A stretch of 41,969 bases of DNA from Thermococcus sp. (GTDB taxonomy: Archaea > Methanobacteriota_B > Thermococci > Thermococcales > Thermococcaceae), in the NCBI RefSeq assembly GCF_015523185.1, contig NZ_WAKV01000077.1, positions 1 through 41,969 on the forward strand. The letters are read 5' to 3'. Below, piece by piece: positions 18,072 through 24,207 of the stretch. The notes beneath the pieces were generated by a model. The model ran no database searches. It worked only from the letters and a program-made list of their open reading frames with translations, and was not told the DNA's origin. Each line of letters starts with the position of its first letter. Position 1 is the first letter of the stretch. Made by a program: the position numbers and the translations under genes.

Positions 18072-18740
18072 AACTCACTCGCAACCTCTATGAGCTTCCT
18101 CATGTGAATCTCAACGGTGTCAACGACTTGGGCATTAACATCGCCCGGCTTGACAACCAGTGGCAACTCCGTACAGCCAAGGATAACGCCCTCAACTCCT
18201 TCCTCTATGTATTTGTTGATTAGGTTGAGCACCAGGCCTCGCTCCTGAAGTTCTCGGACATCAGTTCCTCCTCGATGTCGAGCTCGTCCATCTTGTCCTC
18301 GCCCGGCGTAACGACATCAAATCCTGCTTTTCTGAGTGCGTTCTTGTAGAAGTCCGCCGTCATCGTTGTTTTTGTTCCGAGAAGGAGAACCTTCCTAACG
18401 CCCCTTCCTTTCATCTTCTCGATGAGTGCATCTATTATACCCACCATCGGGACATTCACGGCCTTTTTCACGTCGGGAAAGACGATGTGAGGATGTTTGC
18501 AGTTAACGCTATAACCTCGGTCCCAGCCCGTTCAGGGGCCTTTGCCGCGTTAATGTGTATCTCCTTCCTCACCTCCCAGCCGTTCGGGTTGTGTATGAAC
18601 TCCTTGAAGTTTATGGAGTAGATTCTCAGCTCGGGATAAACGTAGGGCTCGAATTTTCCCTGCTTATTTCGAGGTATTTCTTGTAGTAGTAAAGCGTTGA
18701 TTCCGGGCTCGTTCCGCCGACGAGACCTAGTTTTCTTCAT
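18068..18740 (-). pseudogene. Aspartate/glutamate racemase family pseudogene
   Basis: Conceptual translation on the minus strand recovers nearly a whole racemase if frames are changed: MKKTR, then VGGTSPESTLYYYKKYLEIS, then KFEPYVYPELRIYSINFKEF, then HPHIVFPDVKKAVNVPMV (frame change near 18480), and finally VLNLINKYIEEGVEGVI with LGCTELPLVVKPGD in yet another frame from about 18237 to 18068. The second catalytic-cysteine motif GCTELP survives, while the first (normally CNTPH) is damaged. At least four frame shifts are required, so it is inactive as written. An intact, different member of the family is at 31012-31716. Confidence 0.8.
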
Positions 18741-18748
18741 AGTAACCA

Positions 18749-19075
18749 CTATGTGGATAGAAGAGCGGGAATATGAACCATTTGATTAAAAAAACGAAAG
18801 ATTAAACCGGGCACGAGTTGATAAAGACAATAAAAGTCCCCCGAAGTTCGAATTTCTCTGTCTTCGCCCACGCGCGGAGCTGGAGGTTTATTGAGAATTA
18901 TTGGCAACACTGAGATGCCAACGGCACCGAGGGCCACGAAACTTCGTCCGTCCGAGGCTCCTCTTGAAAGCTCCCAAAAGAACCCTTGAAACTGTGCCAT
19001 GAGGATTATCAAAGCTGAGACAAGCTGAAAGAGTGTTACTCCTACGTATGGCAACGGTTCGTTAAAACCCACCAT
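18749..19075 (-). CDS. Small hypothetical membrane protein, possibly a fragment
   Basis: A 108-residue reading frame with two hydrophobic stretches (VGVTLFQLVSALIILMAQF and FVALGAVGISVLPIILN) separated by a hydrophilic loop, then an unremarkable tail. I recognise no family. No ribosome binding site is clear before the ATG. It ends beside a racemase pseudogene, so it may also be a remnant of a longer membrane protein; the tail after about residue 70 does not look conserved. Confidence 0.3.
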   Translation of the reverse strand: MVGFNEPLPYVGVTLFQLVSALIILMAQFQGFFWELSRGASDGRSFVALGAVGISVLPIILNKPPAPRVGEDREIRTSGDFYCLYQLVPGLIFRFFNQMVHIPALLST

Positions 19076-20974: not shown

Positions 20975-21732
<758 letters not shown>

Positions 21733-21794: not shown

Positions 21795-21812
21795 CTAACT
21801 AATTAGACCTAT

Positions 21813-22247
21813 TTAAAATTTTTTGGTTTTGTCCCCAAAAGCATAGGACATGTAATAGTGTATTAACTCTTCGGCCTTTGAAAAGTCCCTCTCTTTCAAG
21901 CCAAGCATTTTTCTCAACCTTTTGTTCTCGGCTATCAACCCCGAGAGAGTTATCGCAAGGTTTTGATTGTCCGCGGCAGAGTAATAAGCCCTGAACTTTA
22001 GAGGTGACCACTTTCCCTCGAGCTCGTAGAGTTGTTCTTCAAGTTTTTCAATATCTTTTTCAAGCTGGGATATCTCCTCCTCGCTGATGGACTTATCCAA
22101 ATACCCATTGAGGAGTATTATCCTGAGTGCCTCCTCAACCCGGAAACCGTTTCTTTTACATACTTCCTCTATTTTTTTCCATATATCATCCGGGACGTTA
22201 AACGTTACTTTTCTCCACTTTCCCCTTCCACGCACCACTATCTTCAT
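21813..22247 (-). CDS. Ribbon-helix-helix-like plus coiled-coil protein
   Basis: A 144-residue protein. The N-terminal 50 residues (KWRKVTFNVPDDIWKKIEEVCKRNGFRVEEALRIILLNGYL) have the strand-helix-helix pattern of ribbon-helix-helix DNA-binding domains. Residues about 55-80 (EEEISQLEKDIEKLEEQLYELE) form a coiled coil, followed by a helical segment. It overlaps the preceding coiled-coil gene by 4 bases (ATGA), which indicates translational coupling. It is the last gene of the riboswitch-led block before crcB. A regulator or scaffold role is inferred. Its stop codon overlaps the putative crcB TATA box. Confidence 0.7.
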   Translation of the reverse strand: MKIVVRGRGKWRKVTFNVPDDIWKKIEEVCKRNGFRVEEALRIILLNGYLDKSISEEEISQLEKDIEKLEEQLYELEGKWSPLKFRAYYSAADNQNLAITLSGLIAENKRLRKMLGLKERDFSKAEELIHYYMSYAFGDKTKKF

Positions 22248-22549
22248 TTTTTCCCACCTATCTGCTTTCTCAGTGTTTCGTTTTCCCGGCTCAGCTCACT
22301 TCTAAGTCTAATCATGTACTCCCTGTCCCGTTTTGCCCTCTCCTCAAACTCAAGGAGTTCCCTGTAATGAACTTCCATCTCTTTGAGCTTTTTTGAGAGT
22401 TTTTCCTTTTGCTCAAGAAGAATCTCGTATTTAAGAGCTTTTAAAGTTCTTTCAAGTCCTTCAACATCTCTCAGTCTCTTCTCTATTTCCTTTCTGTTTT
22501 TTCTGATTCTTTCGAGCTCTTCGCCACTCACCTCAATTTCAATAACCAT
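22244..22549 (-). CDS. Short coiled-coil protein
   Basis: A 101-residue, highly charged helical protein (SGEELERIRKNRKEIEKRLRD and onwards) that is essentially one long coiled coil. The start at 22549 is preferred because GAGGAGGG lies about 8 bases upstream; it then overlaps the end of the preceding gene by 22 bases. Its stop overlaps the next start by 4 bases. No family is recognised. Shared heptad character with the next gene suggests the two proteins may interact. Confidence 0.65.
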   Translation of the reverse strand: MVIEIEVSGEELERIRKNRKEIEKRLRDVEGLERTLKALKYEILLEQKEKLSKKLKEMEVHYRELLEFEERAKRDREYMIRLRSELSRENETLRKQIGGKK

Positions 22550-23196
22550 CTCTTTTCCCTCCTCTTTTCTCTGCATTCCGGTCCAATTTCCCTACCTGCA
22601 AAGAACTCGATAGTCTCAGTAAGAGCTCGTTTCTCTTTCTCATTGGGTTTTCTCTCTGACCTGTAGTCAAAGCTCTGGACAAAACTCTCAAGCCTCTTGA
22701 AGAGCCCTTCAAGTTTCCTCCTTTGGATTCGTGCTAATTTCTCCTTAAGTTTTTCATCATTAATCCTGCTTAATAAATCTTCATAGTGCCTTCTGCATAA
22801 TATGGAGGGAGAATTTTCGTATAAGTCAATAAAAGAGGAAAATCTCTCGGAAAAAGATTCAAGAAGAATCTCCTCTTTTTCTGATGAGAGTTTGCATAGG
22901 AGACACTCCTCTGTAGCTTGACCACCCCTGAGGTACCACATCAGGACGTCCTTGTAGATTACCGAGATACCGTGTGGACCGAGGAGGGGATTTGAAAGGG
23001 CAAGCCGCAGTGTCTTCCATGCGTGCCGTGGGCATAGTCCTAGGCTCTTTTGAAAGGCTTTTCTGACCTCGGGGTCGTTGGGATGTTCGTAGAGTATTGT
23101 TTCAATCTCTTCCTTTTCGAACTTTTCAATTAACCTGCAGACAGGACAGCCTTCCTCCTCCAGTGAGTGTTTAATCTCGATTTCAATTATGTCCAT
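22528..23196 (-). CDS. DUF6062-like protein with two Cys-Cys-Cys-His sites
   Basis: A 222-residue helical protein containing two similar units: C17-x2-C20 ... C55-x2-H58 (GCPVC, LCPRHAW) and C98-x2-C101 ... C134-x2-H137 (CLLC, LCRRHY). Each set could bind zinc or an Fe-S cluster. The pattern resembles the DUF6062 group, whose function I do not know. The tail is strongly charged and helical. The start at 23196 follows GTGAGGGAC; a GTG at 23205 would overlap the preceding stop. It is the second gene behind the fluoride riboswitch. Confidence 0.7.
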   Translation of the reverse strand: MDIIEIEIKHSLEEEGCPVCRLIEKFEKEEIETILYEHPNDPEVRKAFQKSLGLCPRHAWKTLRLALSNPLLGPHGISVIYKDVLMWYLRGGQATEECLLCKLSSEKEEILLESFSERFSSFIDLYENSPSILCRRHYEDLLSRINDEKLKEKLARIQRRKLEGLFKRLESFVQSFDYRSERKPNEKEKRALTETIEFFAGREIGPECREKRREKRWLLKLR

Positions 23197-23201
23197 GTCC
23201 C

Positions 23202-24071
23202 TCACGGAAGGTATTTTCTCATTGAATCAACCACTGCTAGGGCCCTATAGGTGTTTTGGAAGTTTGAAATACCCAGCTCAAGGCTCCTTCTAAAGCCCCC
23301 GTTGGGGTTCTGAATCTGCCTGATAAACCATACGTGCCTTCTGGGGCATGTTGGTGTCTCGTTTTGAAGTTCTAAACCTCTAGTTGCGTAAAACGTTGGC
23401 TCGAGGTAAGGTGGAAGGCTGTAGGGAACCTCAGTGAACCCACCCCAGTCGCTACAGAGCTCACAGTTCCTAAAGTGTGGGCTCTTAGGTGGCCTGTAGC
23501 CGAGAGTATAAAGAGTAAACAGAGCTTGATACGTCATTGTGGTCGTTGGTTGCTTTACACCATAGCCGTTGCCGTTGCGGAACTTCATGACAAAGGCCCT
23601 TATGGCGTCCTTTTCCTCGGAATCAAATTTCACTCCTATTTTCTCAAAAGCCTTTGTAACCCAGTACGTGGCCTCGAGTGGTGTCGCCGTTCCAAACTCC
23701 TCACTTCCACCGAGACCGACGGCGAACTTGCCTTCCGCTGGGTTGTATTTGGTGAATACTATATCGCTCTTCTCCCTCGCAAGGTCTTTGGCACCGAGGA
23801 TGGCGAGGCCTTCGAGGGCCATTGCTATTGCCACTACAGCAGTCTGGGGCTGTATGGACTTAGACAGGAATTCTATTGTTTTCTCCGGTTCTGGAAACTC
23901 AAGTCCAAGAAGGTCATAGATTTTGACAGCGTAGTAAGTATCGTTCACGTTGGTATCTTCAAGAACACTGACGAAGCAGTAACCACCATCCTCATGACGT
24001 CTTTCTTCTACGTAACGGATGGCCTTATTAACGTCAACGTATCTACCAATTTCATACAGCTTCGAGCCCAT
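23202..24071 (-). CDS. Prenyltransferase/terpenoid-cyclase-like alpha-alpha toroid protein
   Basis: A 289-residue protein with repeated helix pairs each following a Gly-rich turn: HEDGGYCF...NDTYYAVKIYDLLG, NGNGYGVKQP...TYQALFTLYTLG, DWGGFTEVP...EPTFYATRGLEL and NPNGGFRRS...NTYRALAVVDSM. This is the pattern of protein prenyltransferase beta subunits and squalene-cyclase toroids. The classical zinc ligands of prenyltransferases are not evident, but CELC (203-206) and CPRRH (242-246) could bind metal. The start follows GGGAGGTGAG within a possible hairpin, and the mRNA begins with a fluoride riboswitch. It heads a tightly packed operon. Enzymatic activity is unproven. Confidence 0.8.
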   Translation of the reverse strand: MGSKLYEIGRYVDVNKAIRYVEERRHEDGGYCFVSVLEDTNVNDTYYAVKIYDLLGLEFPEPEKTIEFLSKSIQPQTAVVAIAMALEGLAILGAKDLAREKSDIVFTKYNPAEGKFAVGLGGSEEFGTATPLEATYWVTKAFEKIGVKFDSEEKDAIRAFVMKFRNGNGYGVKQPTTTMTYQALFTLYTLGYRPPKSPHFRNCELCSDWGGFTEVPYSLPPYLEPTFYATRGLELQNETPTCPRRHVWFIRQIQNPNGGFRRSLELGISNFQNTYRALAVVDSMRKYLP

Positions 24072-24076
24072 TCTCT

Positions 24077-24098
24077 CACCTCCCGTAGAGAACAGGCG
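24077..24098 (-). promoter_or_regulatory. Possible hairpin enclosing the ribosome binding site of the toroid gene
   Basis: Just upstream of the ATG at 24071, TTCTCT and AGAGAA can pair with the loop ACGGGAGGTG holding the ribosome binding site. It lies immediately 3' of the fluoride aptamer pseudoknot and may be its expression platform acting on translation. Pairing is seen in sequence; the switching role is inferred. Exact ends are approximate. Confidence 0.4.
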
Positions 24099-24153
24099 TC
24101 ATCAGCCCTTTCGGGCAGTTCGGACTCGAAGCCCAGGGCGGACGCCATCGCCC
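24093..24153 (-). ncRNA. Fluoride riboswitch (crcB motif)
   Basis: Read on the minus strand the leader begins GGGCGATG and closes a hairpin with CGCCC. The loop element GGCGTC (24141-24146) is exactly complementary to GACGCC (24095-24100), forming the expected pseudoknot. A second hairpin CTGCCC-GAAA-GGGC is followed by TGATG, the conserved 3' signature. The order matches the known fluoride aptamer, with an added short hairpin (GGGCT-TCG-AGTCC) between the two stems. A TATA box is centred 25 bases upstream, so the RNA should start at the first G of the aptamer. It controls the toroid-gene operon that leads into crcB. Confidence 0.88.
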
Positions 24154-24172
24154 TATATTCACTTGGAGTGGT

Positions 24173-24182
24173 GCTTTAAAAG
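24173..24182 (-). promoter_or_regulatory. TATA box of the fluoride-riboswitch operon
   Basis: CTTTTAAAGC on the minus strand is centred about 25 bases before position 24153, which is the first base of the aptamer. This spacing supports both the promoter and the riboswitch call. Confidence 0.65.
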
Positions 24183-24207
24183 TTTCGTGGTTCAACGCTC
24201 TAAGAAC

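Follow-up and report, generated by a model that had tools for sequence, protein, structure and literature searches.

Within a 41,969-nucleotide stretch of Thermococcus sp. DNA (the window), a fluoride riboswitch lies directly before the gene of an alpha/alpha-toroid protein, and we consider it fairly likely that it controls the translation of this Thermococcaceae-specific protein, probably turning the gene on by freeing a start codon that would otherwise be paired in the RNA. The riboswitch is bound to the toroid gene: the two occur together where the fluoride channel gene crcB has moved or was undetected, and both are lost where crcB stays. We infer the direction of switching, the translational level of control and the role of the toroid protein in fluoride tolerance alike.

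An Rfam scan of the whole window recovered a single riboswitch, a full-length match (1-64/64) to the fluoride family RF01734 that scored 50.4 bits against a gathering score of 34. The aptamer announced in an earlier note on this DNA was thereby borne out (the covariance model being the check named there), as were its 6-bp pseudoknot (GGCGUC/GACGCC, formed between the P1 loop and the 3' tail), the TGATG signature and both hairpins. Judged by its sequence, the aptamer is a member of this family, with which it has the architecture and pseudoknot of the bacterial representatives in common, and it would be expected to bind fluoride. The elements of the leader are as follows:

24086..24161, minus strand: fluoride riboswitch aptamer (RF01734, E 3.4e-11)
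24141..24146, minus strand: 5' strand of the pseudoknot, GGCGTC, recognised by sequence and covarying with the 3' strand in genus g3
24095..24100, minus strand: 3' strand of the pseudoknot, GACGCC, whose own GCC can pair alternatively with the GGC of codon 2 of the gene behind
24173..24188, minus strand: BRE/TATA promoter of the riboswitch transcript (ACGAAACTTTTAAAGC), recognised by sequence, with the same spacing kept in most loci

In genus g3, to which P. abyssi and P. horikoshii belong, the pseudoknot is altered on both strands (GGCGCC/GGCGCC), which amounts to a compensatory change. The BRE/TATA element is situated about 24 nt 5' of the first aptamer base, in keeping with the earlier proposal that the transcript starts on that base; the T. 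kodakarensis primary transcriptome gives a length of 86 nt for the orthologous 'crcB RNA', which agrees with a start at the first aptamer base (PMC4247193). An archaemetzincin gene (PF07998, 24250-24957, plus strand) diverges from the riboswitch promoter and adjoins the switch in many relatives as well.

Six genes follow the riboswitch, in the order toroid, DUF6062, two coiled-coil ORFs, crcB and DUF190:

23202..24071, minus strand: gene 1, alpha/alpha-toroid protein (PF00432), orthologue of TK0513 by synteny
22528..23205, minus strand: gene 2, DUF6062 protein with two invariant CxxC/CxxH pairs, its true start probably the ATG at 23196
22244..22576, minus strand: gene 3, coiled-coil ORF
21813..22247, minus strand: gene 4, ORF with a ribbon-helix-helix-like N-terminus and a long coiled coil
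21361..21732, minus strand: crcB (Fluc) fluoride channel (TIGR00494, 97.7 bits, cut-off 80.45)
20975..21355, minus strand: DUF190 (PF02641, 132 bits)

The first gene is therefore not crcB, just as the earlier note had it. The order that it gave for the next three genes also stands, although gene 2 is not without family, being a DUF6062 member; the AlphaFold model of gene 4 reproduces the ribbon-helix-helix-like N-terminus and the long coiled coil with moderate confidence (pLDDT 79.7). Further along the window (18220-18750), a racemase-like coding sequence is split over two frames (18468-18749 and 18220-18471), probably by a frameshift or as a pseudogene.

The toroid gene encodes 289 aa with a PF00432 match above cut-off, and its AlphaFold2 model is a confident alpha/alpha toroid (pLDDT 90.7). 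Its nearest folds by Foldseek (E down to 1.9e-6, TM-score about 0.6-0.7) are squalene-hopene cyclases and the beta subunits of RabGGTase and FTase, which are alike in fold; the window protein is shorter and has neither zinc ligands nor DXDD. Two enzymatic assignments were thus rejected: for a Zn-dependent prenyltransferase beta subunit, the Asp/Cys/His ligands are replaced by E224/T226/Q272, invariant in the alignment (positions matched by hand), and for a class II terpene cyclase, the DXDD motif occurs in 0/76 toroid sequences. About one third of the residues are invariant in the aligned set, which suggests a ligand site. A PDB sequence search with the toroid gave marginal matches only, and a scan of GTDB contigs and a search of the phylum returned weak toroid matches and no close relatives outside Thermococcaceae, so that guilt by association does not reach beyond this family.

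The aptamer was found in 88 of the 94 Thermococcaceae genomes (in some as two copies), and the DNA around 91 copies was read, yielding 76 of a long kind and 15 of a short kind. Most long-kind copies carry an insert in J12, and the toroid gene is directly behind the switch in 76/76 of those examined (orthologous loci that represent a single inheritance, not 76 events), while crcB is directly behind in none. One toroid gene is broken by stops (G076), leaving 75 intact loci; within the fetched stretches these also hold crcB (64), gene 4 (59) and DUF6062 (48). The toroid gene is hence the constant partner and the three small genes (48-59 of 75 loci) are variable passengers. The earlier suggestion that the riboswitch tags four genes as candidates for a fluoride response is accordingly strong for the toroid and weak for the other three, which are missing from many loci.

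Departures from the common arrangement show which genes stay with the switch. In genus g3 (Pyrococcus), crcB is far from the switch, and in the two loci read (G004 and G006, presumably P. abyssi and P. horikoshii) it has its own TATA and is without a riboswitch; G020 shows the same picture. G054 (99% complete) holds switch and toroid, and a search of that genome for crcB did not find it. In G080 the switch is gone together with most of the toroid gene, and crcB is still next door. In G012, which we take to be P. yayanosii, the toroid gene is intact with its conserved codons, the riboswitch is gone and crcB was not found; the persistence of the gene after the riboswitch deletion suggests that the protein may also act outside fluoride control. 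The leader of this locus (L124, just upstream of position 1663) appears to have lost the switch between two GATGGCGCC repeats.

These arrangements bear on whether the exporter could be the true target, with the switch serving as leader of a crcB-DUF190 operon by read-through and the toroid and other ORFs as inserted passengers. crcB-DUF190 lies 3' of the toroid in 64/75 loci, in some genomes after a gap of only 11-24 nt, and in such tightly packed relatives promoter-like elements before crcB are mostly absent, which makes co-transcription of toroid and crcB likely there. Nevertheless, no long-form copy examined adjoins crcB directly, crcB stands far off under its own TATA in Pyrococcus and G020, it is kept in G080 after switch and toroid were lost, and in T. 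kodakarensis a start site is mapped between TK0513 and TK0514 (crcB) (PMC4247193). In the window itself one further element, absent from the earlier note, lies immediately before the channel gene:

21811..21826, minus strand: promoter-like element before crcB (CCAAAAAATTTTAAAT), scoring at a level that 0.5% of coding windows attain (an approximate null, as it is drawn from coding windows)

The same promoter model found such an element before crcB in G024, presumably T. kodakarensis (p 0.017). We regard the read-through account as unlikely overall; as a rule for every locus it is rejected for Pyrococcus and G020, and it may hold for the tightly packed loci. We propose that crcB in Thermococcaceae is expressed mostly from its own promoter, so that the earlier description of crcB as last in the operon holds only in part, crcB often having a promoter-like element to itself.

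The case for translational control of the toroid gene starts from its first codons. Bacterial RF01734 examples often overlap terminators, whereas the long kind carries, in most copies, an 11-13 nt J12 insert (GCUUCGAGYCC) complementary to the start codon and the next three codons of the toroid gene (GGGCUCGAAGC); the gene start AUGGGCUCGAAGC is the complement of the insert GCUUCGAGCCC. In the window, the strands concerned are:

24122..24132, minus strand: J12 insert strand GCTTCGAGTCC, complement of the gene 1 start
24059..24069, minus strand: GGGCTCGAAGC, the last base of the ATG, codons 2-4 and the first base of codon 5, partner of the insert and invariant at codon level
24072..24084, minus strand: Shine-Dalgarno (SD) region GGGAGGTGAGAGA, within the predicted sequestering hairpin

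Codons 2-4 are the most codon-conserved of the gene (GGC 71/71, TCG 70/73, AAG 68/68), against a median top-codon share of 44-74% in comparison columns and 0.44 in fourfold columns. Perfect Watson-Crick runs of 10-12 occur in 53/75 loci (the 309 control starts, drawn from these loci, do not exceed 8), and 10 of the 11 insert/codon pairs form in 65/65 insert-bearing loci. All three variable positions retain a standard pair, including the window's own C-to-U; covariation is weak, since the changes in the pair table are one-sided only (GU). The codons are kept in all 65 loci with the insert vs 5/10 without it (Fisher p 1.5e-5, in a test that ignores relatedness): they diverge in the insert-less G065, G022 and G046, as well as in G059 and partly in G054, and are retained in G042, G050, G055, G056 and G066, where the insert has changed. 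These five loci may mean that the codons take part in a different pairing (the 3'-tail hairpin), or that they are leftovers of recent date.

The same five loci, with codons retained but no matching insert, and the near-palindromic nature of the insert itself would also suit a DNA-level operator or a translation-enhancing start, in which GGGCTCGAAGC and its inverted counterpart within the leader would not be partners in an RNA switch. We find this improbable, given that the insert/codon complementarity is exact in register and kept through GU-compatible changes, and that each of the three loci lacking the insert, like G059, has divergent codons.

The start might also be masked by a hairpin in which the aptamer 3' tail takes up the SD and AUG (654/675 pair cells form); in the predicted fold of the window this hairpin is the stronger of the two masks. 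The window RNA folds better than its shuffles (z -3.2). Over the family, the AUG has a mean predicted pairing of 0.38 at 75 C, which does not exceed that of controls (0.36), though values above 0.5 are more frequent (43/75 loci vs 36/177 controls). Taken together, the folding results back the masking model to a mixed degree.

We reason that, without fluoride, initiation would be blocked because the SD, AUG and codons 2-4 are paired to the J12 insert and/or the aptamer 3' tail; in many relatives the 5' strand of P2 would also pair, with the SD. With Mg and fluoride, the P2 helix and pseudoknot would form, the insert would fold back on itself as a hairpin, and the start would be freed; as both masks compete with P2 or the pseudoknot, fluoride binding should have this outcome. 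Close or overlapping downstream starts could carry the effect on to genes 2-4. Transcriptional attenuation, for which many bacterial examples with predicted terminators overlapping the aptamer offer a precedent (PMC2864571), appears very unlikely here: from the aptamer to the AUG, the window sequence contains neither a U-run nor anything like a terminator, and the predicted alternative pairings involve the SD and AUG themselves.

A bolder extension of the translational reading, which we hold to be doubtful, would make the toroid a fluoride-resistance factor independent of the exporter and the protein that fluoride sensing in Thermococcaceae primarily targets, its coding sequence doubling as a switch arm. 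Such a protein might, for example, alter or bind an isoprenoid or lipid and so lessen HF entry, or shield a fluoride-sensitive target.

A non-transporter first gene is not new: the 2014 primary transcriptome of T. kodakarensis placed a crcB RNA upstream of TK0513 and called the placement surprising (PMC4247193). That locus has the same riboswitch, the same first gene by synteny and crcB (TK0514) downstream with a mapped start, and differs in being without the three small genes of the window; the available part of the account gives no family-wide comparison, expression platform or toroid analysis (PMC4247193). The accessible literature did not yield the codon 2-4 pairing, the toroid rather than crcB as constant partner, or the natural losses. 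The claim regarding the platform may be partly anticipated by Speed et al. 2018 (AEM 84:e02306-17), who are said in two citing papers to have described the native T. kodakarensis fluoride riboswitch as a functional inducible system, 'presumably' translational. To our knowledge, natural riboswitches with demonstrated function in archaea are few. The base-pairing model, with invariant codons as switch arm and natural insert-less variants, makes an archaeal translational mechanism testable in the genetically tractable T. kodakarensis, and the lasting bond with the switch, even with the exporter moved or undetected, marks the toroid protein as a candidate for the fluoride response.

The genome of the window also carries a second, shorter fluoride riboswitch (contig C65:1130-1195, minus strand, locus L121; 42.4 bits), followed by a NuoH/HyfC-like gene. 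Behind the short kind (15 copies examined) comes a complex-I/hydrogenase-4-like membrane operon, and formate hydrogenlyase-type genes behind a fluoride RNA were already noted in 2010 (PMC2864571). The short kind seems to have an expression design different from that of the long kind, as a second GACGCC is found next to the start codon in 15/15 copies and a UUCCGGG leader strand matches CCCGGAA in the first codons in 14/15; our guess is that the operon might handle protons against HF acidification. In G044, the 49-kDa-like subunit (L093:9435-10637) has no CxxC pair by eye, so that its complex may be hydrogenase-related and not a true NiFe hydrogenase. Fragments related to window genes 3 and 4 lie just 5' of the short-kind riboswitch in L093, L094, L107, L121, L082, L083 and L118, and a further relative, with an internal stop, is present at C85:9918-10316.
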